Positions 2,955 through 61,905 of a stretch of 64,000 nucleotides of DNA are shown here, in pieces. Origin of the DNA: Streptococcus pantholopis (lineage in GTDB: Bacteria > Bacillota > Bacilli > Lactobacillales > Streptococcaceae); NCBI RefSeq assembly GCF_001642085.1, contig NZ_CP014699.1:1054001-1118000 (forward strand). Reading direction: 5' to 3'. Made by a program: the position numbers and the translations under genes. Numbering within the stretch: the first letter of the stretch is position 1; each line of letters opens with the position of its first letter. The notes under the pieces are model-generated. The model was not told the DNA's origin. It did not search any database and saw nothing but the letters and a program-made list of their open reading frames with translations.

Positions 2955-3100
2955 AAGATACAAAGCCCATGAAAAACGCAAAAGGAAAATAGGGGACTGA
3001 CTGACGAATCGCCAGATTTTAAGTCAGGACATCTTTTTCCCGCAGCGTTTAGGGCGTGTTCAATTACACAAGATACAAAGCCCGTCAAAAGAGCAGAAGA
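2955..3100. repeat. Modular interspersed repeat, full unit plus a truncated second left arm
   Basis: The unit starts AAGATACAAAG-CCC and ends GGGCGTGTTCAATT. Arms pair as GCCC/GGGC, AACGC/GCGTT and GGAAAA/TTTTCC, and a small central hairpin pairs AATC with GATT. A second left arm (AAGATACAAAGCCCG) begins at about 3070 and is cut off near 3100. The unit lies about 5 bp upstream of the Shine-Dalgarno of the RclA-like gene. Confidence 0.8.
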
Positions 3101-3312: not shown

Positions 3313-3344
3313 ATTAACTTATTCATTTTTTAAACCGATTGACG

Positions 3345-3515
3345 TTTTTCAGGAGAGAAAAGATAGACCATCTTTCACCGAAGGAGTTGCACTCTCAGGT
3401 GTCATAAGAGAATGACAGGACTGATTAACTGACGGACTTCTGGAGAGACCTTTTTAGGCGCCGAAGGGGCAAGGCAAATGTGCTCAATCTCTCAGGCAAA
3501 AGGACAGAAAAAGCG
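3345..3515 (+). promoter_or_regulatory. Tandem glycine riboswitch
   Basis: Two consecutive glycine aptamers are recognisable. The first has CAGGAGAG, CACCGAAGGAG, CTCTCAGG and GACAGGACTG. The second has CTGGAGAGACC, GCGCCGAAGGGGCAA, CTCTCAGGCAAAAGGACAG. The expression platform is the terminator at 3560-3590, which precedes the sodium:alanine/glycine symporter gene. Glycine riboswitches upstream of AGCS transporters are an established arrangement. Whether this one turns the gene on or off cannot be read directly. Confidence 0.93.
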
Positions 3516-3559
3516 AAGATAAAATTTAAAGATTTTTAAGCTTTTTTATCGTACTTACA

Positions 3560-10262: not shown

Positions 10263-10378
10263 AAGATACAAAGCCCGTTAAAAGAGCAAAGCAAAAATAG
10301 GAGCCTGACCGCCGAGTCATTAAAGACTCAAGGGAGGGCTGTCTTTTTTGCACAGCTCTTAGGGCGTGTTCAATTAAC
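10263..10378. repeat. Modular repeat, basic unit (about 115 bp)
   Basis: Left arm AAGATACAAAG-CCC-GTTAAAAGAGC and right arm TTTTTTGCACAGCTCTTA-GGGC-GTGTTCAATT. Arms pair as GCCC/GGGC and AGAGC/GCTCT, and the central hairpin is GAGTC/GACTC. First of five units filling the mtlF-mtlD gap. Confidence 0.85.
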
Positions 10379-10797
10379 AAGATACAAAGCCCGTTAAAAA
10401 CGCAAAAGGAAAATGGCGGTAAGTCCGAAATCTATGATTTCGCAGACGCACCCCTGCCAGGACGACTAGAAAGGTGCGGTCGACTGTTAAAGCGACAAAG
10501 CTTTCAGTCGTTTACGGTTGGCGGTAAGTCCGAAATCTATGATTTCGCAGACGCACCCCTGCCAGGACGACTAGAAAGGTGCGGTCGACTGTTAAGACGA
10601 CAAAGCTTTCAGACGTCTACGGTTGGCGGTAAGTCCGAAATCTATGATTTCGCAGACGCATCCCTGCCAAGACGACTAGAAGGGTGCGGTCGACTGCTAA
10701 GGCGACAAAGCCTTCAGACGTCTACGGCTGGATAGTAATAATACAGCACTCAGCTTGACTAGTTTTTCCCACAGCGTTTAGCCCGTGTTCAATTAAC
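10379..10797. repeat. Modular repeat carrying three 105-bp modules
   Basis: The left arm has AACGC and GGAAAA where the other type has AGAGC and GCAAAA. The right arm (about 10770-10797) has the matching TTTTTCCC and GCGTT. Between them are three head-to-tail 105-bp modules starting at 10415, 10520 and 10625. Each module has a GAAATC-nnn-GATTTC hairpin and a CGCACC/GGTGCG pair. The outer clamp here is GCCC/GCCC, which does not pair, so the unit may be a recombinant. Confidence 0.85.
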
Positions 10798-11027
10798 AAG
10801 ATACAAAGGGCGTTAAAAGAGCAAAGCAAAAATAGGAAAATTGACGAAGAGTCGCTGAGACTCTAGGAGATTTTATCTTTTTTGCACAGCTCTTAGCCCG
10901 TGTTCAATTAACAAGATACAAAGGGCGTTAAAAGAGCAAAGCAAAAATAGGAAAATTGACGAAGAGTCGCTGAGACTCTAGGAGATTTTATCTTTTTTGC
11001 ACAGCTCTTAGCCCGTGTTCAATTAAC
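10798..11027. repeat. Two identical 115-bp repeat units in tandem
   Basis: Units at 10798-10912 and 10913-11027 appear identical base for base. Each has clamp GGGC/GCCC, stem AGAGC/GCTCT and central hairpin GAGTC/GACTC, and ends GTGTTCAATTAAC. Identity suggests recent duplication. Confidence 0.9.
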
Positions 11028-11088
11028 AAGATACAAAAGTCGTTTAAAACACATAAGTCCGAAATCTTCCATTTCGTCTGCTGCGGTT
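11028..11088. repeat. Truncated repeat unit abutting the mtlF stop codon
   Basis: Left arm AAGATACAAAAGTCG followed by the start of a 105-bp module (AAGTCCGAAATC...). The unit is cut off at the 3' end of mtlF. Confidence 0.7.
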
Positions 11089-33565: not shown

Positions 33566-36019
33566 TTATTTAATTTCTGCAGAGAGCACTTCATCCGAAA
33601 TGGTATCAGAAATGAAGGAGCCGTTGCTGCTGCGCTCCGAAAACGGCAGATCTTCCAGGATGACATCATAGGTTTTTCCGCTTTTTGAGATAATCTCAAG
33701 TTTTTCTGGCTCTTCTCTCTTTTCTGGCTGCACACTAAATAAATCAAGTGATGGATCGCCTGCAGAATGAATCGGCCCAGCTAAAAAGACACGGTGAGGT
33801 TTGGCTTTTAGTTCACGCAGCACTTGCAGACCGCGGTTAGCTCGGCTGGTTGAAGGAATGAGAGAGACAGCCATCCGTTTCAGACTCCCTCTTTGTGTCA
33901 GCAAAAAGATGCTTTCAGCACTAAGGATAAAGGCACTGGCTAGACTGTCGTCTTCTTTTAAGTTGATTGCCTTAACGCCAGCTGCTTTTCCGCTCAAAAC
34001 GGGGACATCGCCGATATTGAAACGCAGCGCATAGCCTTTACGAGTAATCAGCATGATATCATCTAAAGCAATAGGGGCAACTGCAATAACACGATCGTCT
34101 TTATTTCTTAATTTAGCAAACTGACTGGATTTAGACCGGTAGGTCCGCCAGGGAGAAATCGCCTGACGTTCCAGCCGTTTAATCTGGCCCAGTTTTGTAA
34201 CTGCAAAATAGGTAGCTGCATCAAAATCATCAATAATTTCTGCATAAACTACCTGCTCATCACTTGCAAAATTCGTAATAGTCTGTGACAGGTGCTCACC
34301 GATCTCTTTCCAGCGGATATCTGTCAGCTCGTGAACAGGCCGGTAAATCAAATTGCCGAAATTGGTGAAAATCAGCAGATGCTGAGTCGTTTTAGCTTTT
34401 TGGACTAAACTGACAGAATCATCATCACGTTTCCCCATCTCATCCAGATGAGAAGATTTAAAGGAGCGGGGGCTTGTGCGTTTGAGGTAGCCGCTTCGCG
34501 TTACGCTGACAAAGGTTTCTTCTTCAACAATCAGGCTGGCCAAATCAATTTCCAAAGCCTGTGTTTCAGCCTGCAGTTCTGTCAGACGCGGCTTGGCAAA
34601 TTTTTTCTTCACTTCACGCAGTTCACTCTTCATCACACGGTAGAGAGTCGCCTCGTCCGCAATAATTGCTTTCAAAGTCGTAATACGTTCTCTGAGCTCT
34701 GCTTCTTCGTTTTCAAGAGTAACAATATCTGTATTAGTCAAGCGATAGAGCTGCAGATTGACAATAGCTTCTGCCTGCTCTTCTGAAAAATCATAACTGA
34801 CTTTGAGATTTTCCTTGGCATCAGCCTTATTTTCGGATGCCCGAATAAGAGCAATAATATCATCTAAAATGGAGATGACACGAATCAGCCCTTCAACAAT
34901 ATGAAGACGTTTTTCGGCCTTTTCCTTATCAAATTTAGAGCGGGCTACAATGATGCTTTTGCGGTGGACGATGTAGCTGCTCAGCATCGGAATCAGACCG
35001 ACCTGACGCGGTGTGTAGTGGTCAATCGCCACCATATTGAAATTGTAGTTAACCTGTAAATCCGTGTATTTGAATAAATAGTTTAAAATGGTTTGTGCAT
35101 CAGCCTCTTTTTTCAGTTCAATAGCGATACGCAAACCATCCCTGTCTGATTCATCCCGAACTTCTGCAATGCCCGGAACTTTGTTATTCAGACGGATATC
35201 ATCAATTCTTTTGACCAAAAAAGCTTTATTCACTTCATAGGGGATTTCTGTCGCAATGATTTGCTGCCGACCGCCGCGAAGATTTTCGATGTCAGTTTTA
35301 GAGCGCACAACAATTCGGCCCTTCCCGGTTTCATAGGCCTTGCGAATCTCATCTTTCCCTTGGATAATGGCTCCTGTGGGAAAGTCCGGTCCGGGTAAAA
35401 ATTCCATCAGCTTATCTAACTTAGCTTTTGGGTGGTCGATCATATAAATCGCAGCATTAATCACTTCAGCTAAATTATGCGGCGGGATATCGGTGGCGTA
35501 GCCTGCTGAAATTCCTGTTGCACCGTTAACCAAAAGGTTGGGGAAGGCTGCTGGTAAAACCGTTGGTTCTTTTTCAGTATCATCAAAGTTCCAAGCCCAA
35601 GGCACAGTTTTCTTGTCAATATCTTGGAGCAGAAACCCTGCAATTTCAGATAAACGGGCCTCGGTATAACGCATGGCTGCAGGCGGATCACCGTCCATAG
35701 ACCCGTTATTGCCGTGCATCTCTATCAGCCTTTCACCATTTTTCCAGTCCTGTGACATACGGACCATGGCATCATAAATAGAAGAATCTCCATGCGGGTG
35801 GAAATTCCCCATAACATTTCCGACTGATTTAGCCGATTTACGGAAGCCTTTGTCGTGCGTATTGCCATCTTTATTCATTGAATAGAGAATCCGGCGCTGG
35901 ACAGGTTTAAGCCCATCACGAATATCAGGGAGCGCACGCTCTTGAATGATGTATTTGGAATAGCGTCCGAAGCGCTCTCCCATAATGTCTTCTAAAGACA
36001 TGTTTTGTACATTGCTCAT
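33566..36019 (-). CDS. parC: DNA topoisomerase IV subunit A
   Basis: This 817-residue subunit cuts and rejoins DNA to decatenate daughter chromosomes with ParE. The start MSNVQNMSLEDIMGERFGRY is the streptococcal one. The catalytic Tyr118 is in AAMRYTEARL. The quinolone-resistance region HPHGDSSIYDAM keeps Ser79 and Asp83, so no classic resistance change is present. The C-terminal beta-pinwheel is complete. No Shine-Dalgarno is visible upstream of the ATG; a diverged repeat unit starts 6 bp upstream. The GNAT gene at 36388 separates it from parE. Confidence 0.96.
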   Translation of the reverse strand: MSNVQNMSLEDIMGERFGRYSKYIIQERALPDIRDGLKPVQRRILYSMNKDGNTHDKGFRKSAKSVGNVMGNFHPHGDSSIYDAMVRMSQDWKNGERLIEMHGNNGSMDGDPPAAMRYTEARLSEIAGFLLQDIDKKTVPWAWNFDDTEKEPTVLPAAFPNLLVNGATGISAGYATDIPPHNLAEVINAAIYMIDHPKAKLDKLMEFLPGPDFPTGAIIQGKDEIRKAYETGKGRIVVRSKTDIENLRGGRQQIIATEIPYEVNKAFLVKRIDDIRLNNKVPGIAEVRDESDRDGLRIAIELKKEADAQTILNYLFKYTDLQVNYNFNMVAIDHYTPRQVGLIPMLSSYIVHRKSIIVARSKFDKEKAEKRLHIVEGLIRVISILDDIIALIRASENKADAKENLKVSYDFSEEQAEAIVNLQLYRLTNTDIVTLENEEAELRERITTLKAIIADEATLYRVMKSELREVKKKFAKPRLTELQAETQALEIDLASLIVEEETFVSVTRSGYLKRTSPRSFKSSHLDEMGKRDDDSVSLVQKAKTTQHLLIFTNFGNLIYRPVHELTDIRWKEIGEHLSQTITNFASDEQVVYAEIIDDFDAATYFAVTKLGQIKRLERQAISPWRTYRSKSSQFAKLRNKDDRVIAVAPIALDDIMLITRKGYALRFNIGDVPVLSGKAAGVKAINLKEDDSLASAFILSAESIFLLTQRGSLKRMAVSLIPSTSRANRGLQVLRELKAKPHRVFLAGPIHSAGDPSLDLFSVQPEKREEPEKLEIISKSGKTYDVILEDLPFSERSSNGSFISDTISDEVLSAEIK

Positions 36020-36024
36020 AATTT

Positions 36025-36134
36025 AAGATACTAAGGGCGTTATACAGACAAAGTCAAAACAAGAAACTGACCAAAGACGCTGGCGTCTAGGGAACAGTTG
36101 CTTTTCATACAGTCTGCGGCCCGCATTCAGTTCC
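36025..36134. repeat. Diverged modular repeat unit upstream of parC
   Basis: AAGATACTAAG-GGC ... GCCCGC-ATTCAGTT. The clamp pairs GGGC/GCCC. The second stem is AGAC/GTCT instead of AGAGC/GCTCT. The central hairpin is AGACG-CTGG-CGTCT. Sequence differs from other copies but the pairings hold. The remainder of the gap to the GNAT gene (36135-36387) holds nothing I can support. Confidence 0.65.
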
Positions 36135-36387
36135 TTTCATTAGGTTAAAAAGGTGATTTAATAGAAATTCATTTGTCATTTTGTATAAAATCAAGCGGAT
36201 AAAAGTCACAGATATCCTATGCTGAAAAAACCTCTCACAGCTTATGCCAAAATCTTCGCGGTGATGACTGGAAGGGAGAACAACAAATATTCGGTAAAAG
36301 GTAGATTCTGCTAAATTAAGCACTGCAGCCAGAGAACAGGAACAATTTTAACTCTAACTATTTTCCTCCGATAGCGCAGGATCTTGC

Positions 36388-45807: not shown

Positions 45808-46019
45808 AAGATACAAAGCCCGTGAAAAGCTCACAGCAAAAATGACGGTAAGTCCGAAATCTTCGATTTCGCAGACGCACCTCTGCCAGAACGACTAGAA
45901 GGGTGCGGTCGGCTGTTAAGACGACAAAGCCTTCAGACGTCTACGGCTAGCTAACTTGAAATCAATTCTAAACTTAGCCTTATCTTTTTTGCAAAGAGCT
46001 TAGGGCGTGTTCAATTCAT
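45808..46019. repeat. Modular repeat with one 105-bp module
   Basis: Left arm AAGATACAAAG-CCC-GTGAAAAGCTC pairs with right arm GAGCTTA-GGGC-GTGTTCAATT. The AGCTC/GAGCT stem replaces AGAGC/GCTCT on both sides. One 105-bp module occupies 45843-45947. Confidence 0.85.
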
Positions 46020-46275
46020 AAGACACAAAGGCCGTTAAAAAATCCGTATGAAAATGACGGTAAGTCCGAAATCTTTGATTTCGCAGACGCACCTCTGCCA
46101 AGACGACTAGAAAGCTGCTGTCGGCCACCAGGACGGCAAAGCTTTCAGACGTCTACGGCTTTTCTAATCAATTGCTATTACAAAGCATGGTTATACCATC
46201 TTTTTCACTAGGATTTTAGGGCGTGTTCAATTCATAAGACACAAAGCCCGTTTAGAAACCGGTTCAGCTCTAGTT
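46020..46275. repeat. Modular repeat with one 105-bp module, plus a truncated third left arm
   Basis: Left arm AAGACACAAAG-GCC ... AAAATCC and right arm GGATTTTA-GGGC-GTGTTCAATT pair as AATCC/GGATT. The module is at 46056-46160. A further left arm (46236-46275) is cut at the DUF3021 stop. Confidence 0.85.
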
Positions 46276-46686
46276 CTACTGCTGCTTTTCTTTTGTCTCT
46301 TCAGGAATATTTTTTAAGATATATTTACTGATAAAGTAACCTAGACTGCACAGCACGACGCCCCACAGAGCAAAACTGAGCAGAGCAAAAATATAACCAC
46401 TAGGTTTGCTGATATCATACCATCCGCTAATCAGCAATGCCGGATAAACCGTTGCTAACATCAGTAAAGTATGTACAATTATTTTTTTCTTGACCGTCCA
46501 AACATCGTAGTCATAAATAGCTGACGCTGCTGAAACAGCGGTTGAAATAATCGTTACAGCCACCATACTCCAAAATGCCTGTTGATTATCCTCTTGAGCA
46601 AGAAAATAGGTTATCGTTCCCATAATAATTAAAGGAATAATACCCCTAATAAAAGCCTGTTTAATACATTTTTCTTTTAAATTCAT
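46276..46686 (-). CDS. DUF3021 family membrane protein
   Basis: This 136-residue protein has four hydrophobic segments (about 12-30, 38-58, 70-88, 100-122) and a charged tail, matching the DUF3021 family often paired with LytTR regulators. No LytTR gene is next to it here. AAGGGGGG precedes the ATG. Repeat units flank the gene on both sides, so it may have arrived as a repeat-bounded segment. The function is unknown. Confidence 0.75.
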   Translation of the reverse strand: MNLKEKCIKQAFIRGIIPLIIMGTITYFLAQEDNQQAFWSMVAVTIISTAVSAASAIYDYDVWTVKKKIIVHTLLMLATVYPALLISGWYDISKPSGYIFALLSFALWGVVLCSLGYFISKYILKNIPEETKEKQQ

Positions 46687-46703: not shown

Positions 46704-46915
46704 AAGATACAAAGGCCGTGAAAAGAGCAAAGCAAAAATAGGAGACTGGACGAAAAGCCGCAAGGCTCTAGGACAGGCTATACTCACAGAGCAGCCACAT
46801 TCCTACGTCAGCTTGCGCTTCCTACAACTGCGTCTCTTTTTTGCACAGCTCTTAGGCCGTGTTCAATTGCAACAAGATACAAAGGCCCTTTGAAACTCGC
46901 AGTCTATCTCAGATA
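46704..46915. repeat. Modular repeat unit with unusual filler, plus a truncated left arm
   Basis: Clamp GGCC/GGCC, stem AGAGC/GCTCT, central hairpin AGCC-GCAA-GGCT. Extra sequence (about 46771-46835) lies between the hairpin and right arm. A partial left arm AAGATACAAAGGCC starts at about 46874 and ends at the pyrE stop. Confidence 0.8.
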
Positions 46916-50444: not shown

Positions 50445-51030
50445 AAGATACAAAGACCGATTAAAAATCCGTATGAAAATGACGGTAAGCCAGAAATCTT
50501 CGATTTCGTGTGCGCACCTCTGCCAGAACGACTAGAAAGGTGCGGTCGACTGTTAAGGCGACAAAGCTTTCAGACGTTTACGGCTGACGGTAAGCCAGAA
50601 ATCTCTGATTTCGTCTACGCACCTCTGCCAGAACGGCTAGAAAGGTGCGGTCGACTGTTAAGGCGACAAAGCTTTCAGACGTTTACGGCTGACGGTAAGC
50701 CAGAAATCTTCGATTTCGTCTGCGCACCTCTGCCAGAACGACTAGAAGGGTGCGGTCGACTGTTAAGGCGACAAAGCCTTCAGACGTTTACAGCTGACGG
50801 TAAGCCAGAAATCTTCGATTTCGTCTACGCACCTCTGCCAGAACGACTAGAAGGGTGCGGCAGGCTGTTAAGACGACAAAGCCTTCAGACGTTTACGGCT
50901 GACGGTAAGCCAGAAATCTCTGATTTCGTCTACGCACCTCTGCCAGAACGACTAGAAGGGTGCGGTCGACTGTTAAGGCGACAAAGCCTTCAGACGTTTA
51001 CGGCTGACTGACAAATAAGCTACACTTTTT
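50445..51030. repeat. Modular repeat with five tandem 105-bp modules
   Basis: Left arm AAGATACAAAG-ACC-GATTAAAAATCCG is followed by five head-to-tail 105-bp modules starting at 50481, 50586, 50691, 50796 and 50901, and ending at 51005. Copies differ by a few bases, mostly in the GAAATC-nnn-GATTTC loop. A right arm is reduced to TTTTTATACGG near 51025-51035. The period is a multiple of three, so a plus-strand frame stays open by chance. Confidence 0.93.
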
Positions 51031-56935: not shown

Positions 56936-57206
56936 CAGATACAAAGACCGTAAAAACAACAAAGCAAAGAGACGATAAGTCAGAAATCTTCGATTTCGCA
57001 GACGCACCTCTGCCAAGGACGGCTAGAAAGGTGCGGTCGGCTGTTAAGACGACAAAGCTTTCAGTCGTTTACGGCTGAGGGTAGCTAGGTAACGATACAG
57101 ATTTCCGGCCCCTCACTCTCCCATTTCTGGGTTCGGGCTGAAATCATCCACTGGATGATTTCACTGCACAGCTCTAAGGCCGTGTTAGTTTCATTAAGAT
57201 ACAAAA
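56936..57206. repeat. Modular repeat with one 105/106-bp module
   Basis: Left arm AGATACAAAG-ACC, module at 56971-57076 (one extra base), then a filler with a perfect 10-bp hairpin GAAATCATCC-ACT-GGATGATTTC (57140-57162), right arm GCACAGCTCTAA-GGCC-GTGTTAG and a flanking AAGATACAAA. The rest of the gap to 57463 has a possible degraded right arm (TTTTTGCACAGTTCTTTATG, near 57396-57415) and nothing else I can support. Confidence 0.8.
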
Positions 57207-58505: not shown

Positions 58506-59678
58506 TTATGTTACATCAGTTAAATAAACTGACTTTATCCTTCTATCTCTGTCTTGCACAAAATCAGCCAGCAGCAAGATTGAAAAAACATTATAATAAG
58601 GCTCAATTAAGTGGTGAGCGACCATACTGTTAATGGCAACAGCAATGAGAACAGCTAAAGTATAGTAGTCGTTGCTGGTTACACTTTGAATAGAACGAAC
58701 AGTTGTCAAAGCAACAAAAAGAATAATGAAAACTGAGCCATACAGCAACATTACTTTTAGGTAGGAACTGTCCACAAAATTATAATTTGATACAGTCTCT
58801 GTGCTGCCGCCATTGCCAATAAACTCTATGACTTGACCAAAGGGCTTAATCCCATATAAATCCAGTGCACTTTTTCCTAAGGACAAGCGCCCGGAAGTCA
58901 GGCCATTTATTCGAGCATAAAGCCCTTGTCTGGCATTAAAATGAGCTGTCAGATAGTAAGAAAGATAAGCAAGAAAGACTGTCGTTAATGCAGAAAGCGA
59001 TAAAATCTTATGAAACCGCCCTTTTTGCAAATAACGAATCACTACAAAGATGACAGCCGTAATTAAGATTGTCAGAGCATCCAGACGTGCATCCGAAAAT
59101 CGAATCAGAAATAAAGCTGTGAGAACACCTATCACAGACAGCAGCCAAGGCCTCTTCCATAAGAACAGGTATGCTGAAAACAGGTAAAGATAAAAGATAT
59201 GGGCCGCGAAATCCGTCGGATAAATGATACCAAAAGAATTGCGAACTGCACCGGTATCTGGCCTGATATACTGTAAATTGGGAATAAGATCAAGTAAAGA
59301 AAAGGCAAAAGCCAGAGCAGTGATAAACCCAGCAATAATCAAATAAACTGTTATGATTTTTCTAACATCAATCTTGTAAGCGCCCATCATTAAAATAGTT
59401 AGCGCTAAGACACCTGTATCACTGGTTGCATTCCAAACCAATATTCCCGTCAGAGAAAAGATAGCCGACACAAGAAAAAAGTAAACAGACCAAGTCTTCT
59501 TAAAGAAGATACTGATAACTGCAAAAATCAAAACAGCCTTTGCGACAGAGTGCAAGAAATAAGGCATTGGAAACATTGTCGTTCCAAACATTTCAATAAT
59601 CAGATAAGGAACAAATGACATAAAAAACAAAAGTTCATCTGTCCTTAAAAAATCCAGACGTGTTTGTGCATTAACCAT
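58506..59678 (-). CDS. Polysaccharide polymerase (Wzy-like)
   Basis: This 390-residue protein has ten to twelve hydrophobic segments and a long loop (about 265-310: ARINGLTSGRLSLGKSALDLYG) with the GR-S pattern common in O-antigen polymerases. No other membrane protein in the cluster fits, so it is inferred to polymerise the repeat units outside the membrane. AAGGAAG precedes the ATG. A repeat unit begins 19 bp upstream of the start codon. Confidence 0.78.
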   Translation of the reverse strand: MVNAQTRLDFLRTDELLFFMSFVPYLIIEMFGTTMFPMPYFLHSVAKAVLIFAVISIFFKKTWSVYFFLVSAIFSLTGILVWNATSDTGVLALTILMMGAYKIDVRKIITVYLIIAGFITALAFAFSLLDLIPNLQYIRPDTGAVRNSFGIIYPTDFAAHIFYLYLFSAYLFLWKRPWLLSVIGVLTALFLIRFSDARLDALTILITAVIFVVIRYLQKGRFHKILSLSALTTVFLAYLSYYLTAHFNARQGLYARINGLTSGRLSLGKSALDLYGIKPFGQVIEFIGNGGSTETVSNYNFVDSSYLKVMLLYGSVFIILFVALTTVRSIQSVTSNDYYTLAVLIAVAINSMVAHHLIEPYYNVFSILLLADFVQDRDRRIKSVYLTDVT

Positions 59679-59696: not shown

Positions 59697-59825
59697 AAGA
59701 TACAAAGGCCGTTAAAAGAGCAAAGCAAAAATAGGAAAATTGACGAAGAGTTACTAAGACTCTAGGAAATTTTATCTTTTTTGCACAGCTCTTAGGCCGT
59801 GTTCAGTTCACAAGATACAAAGCCA
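59697..59825. repeat. Modular repeat, basic unit
   Basis: Clamp GGCC/GGCC, stem AGAGC/GCTCT, central hairpin AGAGT/ACTCT. It is close to the mtl copies in sequence and ends with an extra AAGATACAAAG. Confidence 0.85.
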
Positions 59826-60686: not shown

Positions 60687-61796
60687 CTATCTTACTTCTT
60701 TTTTCACACACTGTAAGGCAGCAGCAATGACTTGGTGCATGTCATAATAGCGGTACTGCCCTAAACGGCCGCCAAAGATAACCTGCTGCTCTTTATCCGC
60801 TAAAGCTTTATAAGCCTTGTACAGCCTGTTGTTACGCTCGTTGTTAACAGGATAATAAGGCTCATCTCCCTGCTTCCAAGTTTTTGGAAATTCTTTAGTA
60901 ATAACGGTTTTTGGCTGAGTGCCGAATTCAAAGTGCTTGTGCTCAATAATACGTGTATAGGGTGTTTCAGCATCAGTATAATTGACGACTGCATTTCCCT
61001 GATAATTTTCCTTATCCACAACCTCTGTTTCAAACTGCAGACTGCGATATTCCAGTTCACCCAATTGATAATCAAAAAACTGGTCAATCATCCCGGTGAA
61101 AATGATTTTAGGAAAATCTTTAAGGTAAGCGGCCTTTTCTGCAAAGAAATCAACATTAACTTCAAGGTCTATATTTTGATGTGCCAGCAGCTTTTCGACA
61201 ATTTGTGTATAGCCACCGATTGGAATTCCCTGATAGGTATCATTAAAATAATTATTATCGTAAGTCAGACGAACAGGTAAGCGGCGAATGATGAAAGCTG
61301 GAAGGTCACGGCAGGCTTTTCCCCACTGTTTTTCTGTATAATCTTTAATCAGCTTCTCGTAAATATCAGTTCCGACAAGAGAAATCGCCTGTTCTTCCAG
61401 ATTCTCCGGTTTTTTGCCATCAAGCACTGCCCGCTGCTCTTCAATCTTGGCCATCGCCTGCTCGGGAGTTACTACTCCCCACAATCGATTAAACGTATTC
61501 ATATTGAAAGGAAGATTGTAAATCTCTCCCTTATAGTTGGCAATAGGGGAGTTAGTATAGCGGTTGAACTCAGCAAATTGGTTAACATAATCCCAAATGG
61601 CTTTATCCGAAGTATGAAAAATGTGGGCGCCGTATGTATGGACATGAATATCTTCTACTTTTTTGGTATAGATATTACCCGCAAGGTGGCTGCGCTTTTC
61701 AATAACCTTAATTTTTTTACCCTTAAGGGCTGCCTCATGAGCAAAAACAGCTCCAAAAAGACCTGCACCGACAACTAAATAATCATATTGGGACAT
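60687..61796 (-). CDS. glf: UDP-galactopyranose mutase
   Basis: This 369-residue flavoenzyme converts UDP-galactopyranose to UDP-galactofuranose. The FAD motif VVGAGLFGAVFAHEAA, RSHLAGN, HTYGAHIFHT and the C-terminal FGGRLGQYRYYDMHQVI are diagnostic. AAAGGAG precedes the ATG. Its presence shows the polysaccharide contains galactofuranose. A degenerate repeat lies between it and wzx. Confidence 0.97.
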   Translation of the reverse strand: MSQYDYLVVGAGLFGAVFAHEAALKGKKIKVIEKRSHLAGNIYTKKVEDIHVHTYGAHIFHTSDKAIWDYVNQFAEFNRYTNSPIANYKGEIYNLPFNMNTFNRLWGVVTPEQAMAKIEEQRAVLDGKKPENLEEQAISLVGTDIYEKLIKDYTEKQWGKACRDLPAFIIRRLPVRLTYDNNYFNDTYQGIPIGGYTQIVEKLLAHQNIDLEVNVDFFAEKAAYLKDFPKIIFTGMIDQFFDYQLGELEYRSLQFETEVVDKENYQGNAVVNYTDAETPYTRIIEHKHFEFGTQPKTVITKEFPKTWKQGDEPYYPVNNERNNRLYKAYKALADKEQQVIFGGRLGQYRYYDMHQVIAAALQCVKKEVR

Positions 61797-61818: not shown

Positions 61819-61905
61819 AAGTGACCAAGACCGATTCAAATCCATATAAAAAGAGGAAGGGCGATGCCTGACACCGCAACGGATATATCTTTTCATCTAA
61901 GATTT
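61819..61905. repeat. Degenerate modular repeat between wzx and glf
   Basis: AAGTGACCAAGACCGATTCAAATCC resembles the left arm at 50445; the partner TCTTTTCATCTAAGATTTTAGG resembles the 46020 right arm and runs into the wzx stop codon. Confidence 0.5.

Follow-up and report, generated by a model that had tools for sequence, protein, structure and literature searches.

Two kinds of described system come close to the repeat family analysed here, initiation regions that contain RNA structure and BOX-like repeats. In the E. coli thrS mRNA, a structure reportedly separates a single-stranded standby region from the part that holds the SD and the AUG, unlike the Streptococcus rods described below, which separate the SD from the AUG. 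The likeness to thrS lies in a hairpin inside the binding region, which the ribosome accommodates without unfolding it (PMC3936740). For genes 38 and 25 of phage T4, a review states that structure shortens the SD-AUG spacing from 22 to 5 nt and from 27 to 11 nt, respectively, and that weakening this structure lowers initiation (PMC3014915). The arrangement proposed here is of the same type, as structure between SD and AUG would shorten an over-long spacing to a working one. The T4 examples are small single hairpins in two phage genes, whereas the Streptococcus rods, exchangeable and in part reduced to mini rods, form a repeat family of about 110 nt that occurs at a number of housekeeping genes in a bacterial genus. 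Literature searches on hairpins between SD and start codon, on split sites and on BOX combined with SD returned no report of such an arrangement in Streptococcus among records that consisted mostly of titles and abstract openings. We file the family as new in the sense of a BOX-like repeat that would make split initiation regions, both kinds being already known.

Similar to the S. pneumoniae BOX element as described by Croucher et al. 2011, the units occur in many copies per genome and form a rod from two pairing arms, between which tandem middle modules may lie (PMC3049150). A BOX-like layout had been part of the original prediction for this DNA, and it holds for arms that enclose none to several tandem modules of 105 nt; a sequence kinship with pneumococcal BOX was not found. 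A boxC HMM gave ten matches in 464 kb of the genome plus five other loci, the best at E 1.6. In the other direction, an HMM of the 3' arm of the unit reached E 0.57 at best against 30 BOX loci, with many weak matches in the boxC register, and the covariance model of the unit reached E 0.91 at best against 20 of these 30 loci. At the sensitivity of these searches, HMMs in both directions and the covariance model, kinship with BOX by sequence was rejected, as none of them gave anything significant. Canonical BOX and the rod family co-occur in the S. pneumoniae genome that was searched. BOX is over-represented between convergent genes according to Croucher et al. (PMC3049150), whereas most S. pantholopis arrays end at a start in the same sense.

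The same paper describes BOX-type repeats and RepSU1 of S. suis (PMC3049150), and the rod family may be one of these BOX-type repeats. It fits them in being present in S. suis (26 matches to the covariance model) and in having arms of about 50 nt around an optional module; a relative of the middle module occurs in one S. suis array (81% over 54 nt). RepSU1, unlike the rod family, was found by a boxC HMM in PMC3049150. When a boxC HMM was remade from 22 sequences and run against 26 S. suis loci, it gave no significant match on any of the 26 units, the sole low-E match (E 0.0011) lying beside a unit (L280) and the others having E of 0.56 or above. Neither 'ribosom' nor 'translation' occurs in the text of PMC3049150. 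RUP is described there as about 107 bp long and AT-rich with 27.5% GC (PMC3049150); the original prediction had raised RUP for comparison, and the units, with a GC content of 0.33-0.49, do not share this composition and are set apart from RUP by composition alone. SPRITE, raised as well, is marked by a duplex of 18 bp with a U-rich tract after it. An Rfam scan of the window at gathering scores gave eight matches, none of them on units, and a scan of four loci at E 0.1 gave T-box and SSRC8_2, neither on a unit.

Repeat units in the window

The window, i.e. the whole stretch of DNA analysed, comprises 64,000 nt of Streptococcus pantholopis (NZ_CP014699.1, 1,054,001-1,118,000; genome 2.24 Mb). 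Of the units listed in the original prediction, the 11 starting at 2955, 10263, 10379, 10798, 10913, 36025, 45808, 46020, 46704, 56936 and 59697 were read as such, and the one at 61819 is degraded, as had been stated. The units have a single orientation in common, sense to the next gene. The motif AAGATACAAAG occurs 20 times in the window with at most one mismatch, against 2.3 expected, a value reached by none of 100 shuffles; the GTGTTCAATT half alone is not enriched in the window (10 versus 6.7 expected, 14 of 100 shuffles).

The flagged array starts with a gene-proximal unit (10263..10375, - strand; clamp GCCC/GGGC) that lies 18 nt from the start codon of an mtlD-like gene, with GAGGAGG in between. 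The second unit (10379..10794, -) contains three tandem middle modules of 105 nt (10414..10728, -), which are 91-96% alike and take a position like that of boxB in BOX. Units 3 (10798..10909, -; clamp GGGC/GCCC) and 4 (10913..11024, -) have identical model scores, and a fifth unit (11028..11088, -), decayed and still containing parts of a middle module, adjoins the end of the upstream gene. The tandem units have a common junction, and one more AAGATACAAAG copy comes after the units. Five relatives (73-75% identity) lack the motif at this site, and their mtlD SD follows the stop of the upstream gene after only a short gap; the 776-nt array at mtlD therefore looks like an insertion or an expansion.

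A different arrangement is found at a gene of 817 aa (33566..36019, -), which we take to be parC from its N-terminus. Here the unit (36025..36132, -; clamp GGGC/GCCC) lies between SD and start codon, an order referred to below as SD-rod-AUG: GAAAGG, the candidate SD (36133..36138, -), directly abuts the rod on its 5' side, and the ATG follows 5 nt past the rod. Elsewhere, units lie 5' of the SD of the genes at 1621-2970 (unit 2955..3065, -) and 46276-46686 (unit 46704..46868, -; clamp GGCC/GGCC). Another unit (59697..59808, -; clamp GGCC/GGCC) is located 18 nt before the start of the gene at 58506-59678, and the degraded unit (61819..61890, -; limits approximate) is found 5' of the gene at 60687-61796. 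Middle modules are also present in the units at 45808..46016 (-) and 46020..46232 (-) and in a divergent unit at 56936..57192 (-). For a further proposed unit at 50445..51011 (-; right limit approximate), the left arm was recognised together with serial modules of 105 nt, and the far arm was not. At least five modules follow in series at 50445-51011, and a 167-aa open frame (50508-51011), mostly inside these modules, is probably not a gene. A tandem glycine riboswitch was noted at 3340-3517, near the unit at 2955.

Fold and co-variation of the arms

Read in gene sense, the unit of about 110 nt begins with AAUUGAACAC, followed by the clamp of 4 bp, a second stem, a small loop and a third stem (AAAAA/UUUUU). 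Further inwards come the loop GAUA/CCUA, a fourth stem, another loop and finally the apical hairpin, from which the strand runs back to CUUUGUAUCUU. The outer GAACA pairs with UGUAUC in the fold, so that the two unit ends meet. Seven units that were folded singly gave z values of -3.2 to -4.5.

The paired changes of the arms that had been claimed from the window were borne out, in counts that are inflated and not independent because the counted sequences and loci are related. In the table of 11 window units, the clamps of eight are paired at all four positions; the units at 10379 and 46020, said to break the clamp rule, do so with 2/4 and 3/4 pairs, and the unit at 56936 is out of register. 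Across genomes, an alignment-free test of the 4-nt clamp, taken at a fixed offset from both unit ends, found 186 of 226 unique units fully paired, against a mean of 53 and a maximum of 73 in 2000 permutations. The clamp sequences were varied (GCCC/GGGC, GGGC/GCCC, GGAC/GTCC, GGCC/GGCC, GAGC/GCTC and others). Within the genome, 96 covariance-model matches in 464 kb gave an alignment of 86 distinct rows, fitted to the model, with 475 double-changed, still-paired cells versus 200.6 in shuffles, 475 being reached by none of 500; with the partner slid by 1-3 columns the count was 65-124 cells. Double changes occurred at 26 of the 36 pairs and were absent from the five outermost. A model-fitted alignment of the rods from parC start regions (42 matches at 37 loci, five being a second unit farther upstream) contained 221 such cells versus 82.4 shuffled and 34-74 in the slid controls. 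Double changes were present at 27 of 36 pairs of these rods, with few at the five outermost pairs (1 and 3 cells, at two pairs), and their outer helix is 97.3% paired. RNAalifold on a plain MAFFT alignment of 48 non-redundant units returned only 12 pairs, each double-changed, with an energy of -0.97; it was for this weak result that the model-fitted alignments, the alignment-free test and the slid controls were used.

The clamp test and the co-variation of the parC rods and of the within-genome alignment support the predicted selection on a folded form. That this form is RNA rather than DNA is supported indirectly, by the orientation of the units in gene sense, by their SD-rod-AUG placement and by the matching spacing described below.

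Copy number and distribution

Collecting the genome copies with a covariance model built from the 48 non-redundant units, a check that had been suggested at the outset, gave at least 150 copies in the S. pantholopis genome and double changes far above shuffles. Exact AAGATACAAAG occurs 247 + 227 times in this genome, and the reversed control 0 + 0 times. Together with the enrichment of the motif in the window, this confirms a real repeat family, larger than had been described. Copies left of about 1.0 Mb lie mostly on the + strand and those right of there mostly on the - strand, which we read as co-direction with genes.

Among 247 Streptococcus genomes, 242 match the covariance model at E 0.001 or better and five do not, with at most 15 candidates scored per genome for most genomes; S. 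pneumoniae has 18 matches. In an order-wide survey of 148 genomes the model matched 39, of which 20 are Streptococcus and 19, with weak matches (E 9e-4 to 2e-8), belong to other genera. The junction pattern was found in at least 117 stretches of a species-genome collection, nearly all of them Streptococcus; it also appeared in a contig labelled as a Flavobacteriaceae assembly (L087), by contamination or chance. In G034, G269 and G026, three genomes that belong to a different family of this order, the rods at nine loci have different ends (AAGATGCG...) and the TAGGA/TATCT internal loop and tandem layout as in Streptococcus. A wider superfamily beyond Streptococcus is likely.

Tandem units in varying number were seen 5' of the SD of one gene in mitis-group loci (L032, L035, L039, L043, L046 and similar); its product starts with MSIRVIIAGF, and we take the gene to be dapB-like. 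One S. pneumoniae unit (L253) lies between two genes that, from their reading frames, are presumably rpsJ and rplC.

Placement near gene starts

The position of the units relative to gene starts had not been part of the original prediction. In 464 kb of the genome, 32 of the 46 arrays, counted as two or more motifs, end at most 30 nt from a start in the same sense, compared with 6.4% expected for a random intergenic position and orientation. The 3' end of these arrays is usually 11-22 nt from the start, with the SD in between. Ten of the 46 end before a gene on the opposite strand (at least one being a segment-end artefact) and four lie farther away. Several arrays stop at the A-tract of a terminator or leave about 4 nt to a convergent gene's stop codon, so that the 3' end of arrays seems to favour gene borders in general.

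Most placeable copies in the S. pantholopis genome lie just 5' of an SD. Automatic placement found 30 ends that precede an SD, with many ends sorted as 'other' (46 in this genome and 136 in the named loci). SD-rod-AUG placement is certain in this genome only at parC: three automatic assignments to this class are likely spurious, and the true parC case was missed because the anchor of its unit differs. In S. suis and S. pneumoniae, units are found whose 3' end is 2-6 nt from the start codon with no SD in between, and GAAAGG precedes the 5' end of these units. Automatic sorting placed 12 units of S. suis and five of S. pneumoniae in the SD-rod-AUG class. Judged by N-termini, the genes concerned are presumably alaS, prfA, uvrA, dnaJ, carA, carB, parC and proS, and further purB, a type III restriction subunit, two dihydrolipoamide acyltransferases, prmA and deoD. 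About 800 nt 5' of the S. suis alaS unit, a T-box-like match was noted (L254, 485-701; E 2.4e-10, below the gathering score).

Start regions of parC and dnaJ

For a genus-wide test, 124 start regions were read, 72 of parC and 52 of dnaJ. A unit ends at the ATG in 49 and 43 of these, respectively (92/124), and 23 parC and nine dnaJ starts have no unit there. Among the 92 unit-bearing loci, the 16 nt next to the ATG never contain an SD-like motif, and AAAGG is present at most 50 nt before the rod-start match in every one; L360 has this match only through an older copy farther upstream, as the start of its own rod has diverged. By prediction this is the arrangement of a split site, a distant SD with a structure that restores the spacing. 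In unit-free loci, SD-like motifs within 16 nt of the ATG are present at 13 of 23 parC and six of nine dnaJ starts. The rod-free starts are themselves not clean, since 22 of the 32 lack AAAGG within 12 nt and remains of the element persist in L331, L351, L359, L415 and L427. The dnaJ gene of S. pantholopis itself (L434) has no unit, and AAAGG is located 8 nt from its ATG.

Half of the unit-bearing loci (46/92) parse as one hairpin, with a median linear SD-AUG distance of 109 nt. When the rod is looped out and the unpaired nucleotides on the SD side and the AUG side are added, the effective spacing is 8 nt in 28 of these loci, 6 in 12, 10 in three, 11 in two and 13 in one. Where rod-free loci have AAAGG near the ATG, ten in all, the spacing is 7 nt in one, 8 in six and 9 in three. 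The other 46 loci are not parsed as a single hairpin and hence have no spacing value; in many, a second hairpin (GTTC...GAAC) is found between SD and rod and competes for GAACA. The SD-AUG distance in the fold graph of 49 parC loci has a median of 6, compared with 19 for shuffled inserts; this test is moderate, as 24 of the 49 loci beat 95 of 100 shuffles, and the values for L319, L321, L349, L354 and L366 are off since an AAAGG inside the rod was used. The SD itself is paired in many predicted folds, at times with the 3' end of the rod, which could mean repression; this pairing and the competing hairpin would be either a fold error or a switch. The match to what we take to be the anti-SD complement has a median of 8 nt in element loci versus 5, where the element windows were chosen by AAAGG, so that their match starts at 5.

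At orthologous dnaJ sites, rods of dissimilar sequence are found across species. Some rods are strongly reduced, to mini rods whose clamp is still paired: L343 to GCCC-UAA-GGGC, L360 to AGGCU-UUA-AGCCU, and L363 and L381 to GGGAC...GUCCC after a first hairpin. The apical part is missing in six loci (L323, L332-L336) and in L358, and L359 has collapsed to GAAAGGAGTTGAACACGCCCTAT-ATG, with the SD 17 nt from the ATG. Among the reduced rods the interior is dispensable, and end pairing is kept in all except L359. Two serial rods precede parC in L361, L348, L371, L376 and L319, the second with its own GAAAGG, as though a cassette of SD and rod had moved together; at S. suis uvrA (L267), both of two units are likewise preceded by AGAAAGG.

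Discussion

We propose, with a probability of roughly 0.7, that a genus-wide and apparently mobile BOX-like RNA rod holds SD and AUG together and creates a split ribosome-binding site. The unit would share its direction of transcription with the downstream gene and fold into one long rod whose ends meet. Where it lies between SD and AUG, folding would remove about 110 nt from the path, and we think that the rod would act as a splint that brings a strong SD and the AUG to a distance of about 8 nt, which would let the 30S subunit use the split site. Since translation of genes such as parC and dnaJ is under selection, matching changes would be forced in both arms; one or more rods 5' of an intact SD would be tolerated because SD and AUG are left alone. 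This proposal builds on what computation has shown of the fold, of the co-variation, of where the units lie, of the upstream SD that is retained and of the match in spacing; from it we infer that ribosomes would bridge the folded rod at initiation and that copies of the family move by transposition. A tentative extension, which we hold to be possible and on balance doubtful, is that SD-plus-rod cassettes are copied or exchanged as mobile RNA splints among Streptococcus genes and species, where they would serve as exchangeable split sites with conditional use of the start codon through alternative pairings (SD with UAUCUU; GAACA with 3' UGUAUC or 5' UGUUC). Judged from N-termini, the housekeeping genes concerned would be parC, dnaJ, carA, carB, alaS, proS, hisS, prfA, uvrA and others.

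The copy number in one genome, the tandem arrays and the imperfect terminal inverted repeats would also be expected of a selfish MITE- or BOX-like repeat, in which the arms are complementary for the sake of transposition (as folded DNA or a transposase site) or through quasi-palindrome correction and the place at gene starts is merely tolerated. The empty mtlD sites in five relatives and some arrays whose end adjoins a terminator or the stop of a convergent gene (10 of 46, at least one being an artefact) fit such an element as well, as do short direct repeats seen by eye (AATG/AATG at 56936, GTG/GTG at 59697 and GTT along the 10263 array). When 72 array ends were compared, however, direct repeats, as candidate target-site duplications, were inconsistent, occurring at some and not at most ends. 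In the stretches read, unsystematically, no parent insertion sequence with the same ends was noticed. A purely selfish repeat, which we consider unlikely, is further opposed by the 32 of 46 sense arrays close to starts, by the retained distal SD with its matching spacing and by the units kept at the same parC and dnaJ site across many species.

Regulation of translation is compatible with the split-site explanation and does not exclude it. The SD would then pair with UAUCUU/UAUCCU at the 3' end of the rod, or GAACA with 5' UGUUC, and temperature, a protein or a small molecule would set access to the SD. Such a regulator would account for the pairing of the SD in many minimum-energy folds, for the second hairpin that competes for GAACA in several loci and for the conserved unpaired GAUA/CCUA loop, which is also found in relatives outside Streptococcus; yet the genes at rod sites are diverse, Rfam matches do not fall on units, the mini rods retain clamp and ends only, and we know of no ligand or condition. 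We regard regulation as an improbable explanation. Very little credence is given to a mobile promoter in which TTGTAT/TATCTT would serve as the -10 box for a transcript that starts either at or shortly before the start codon, without a leader, or shortly before the SD. TATCTT is indeed invariant in 48 aligned units, 2-22 nt before the start, but the SD upstream of the rod, for which a leaderless transcript has no need, is kept in 92 of 92 loci, the stems co-vary, and no conserved -35 is visible by eye; the kept distal SD and the lack of a -35 led us to set this reading aside.

If the split-site explanation is true, a bacterial genus translates several essential genes from ribosome-binding sites that are split by a foldable repeat, and the spacing between SD and AUG would be set there by an RNA fold and not by distance. 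This would give a reason for the co-varying arms of a BOX-like repeat and show how a repeat can sit harmlessly inside an initiation region, and predictors of gene starts and SD motifs would be blind at such genes. The old question of the function of BOX-like repeats would thereby become open to a reporter test in which clamps are swapped.
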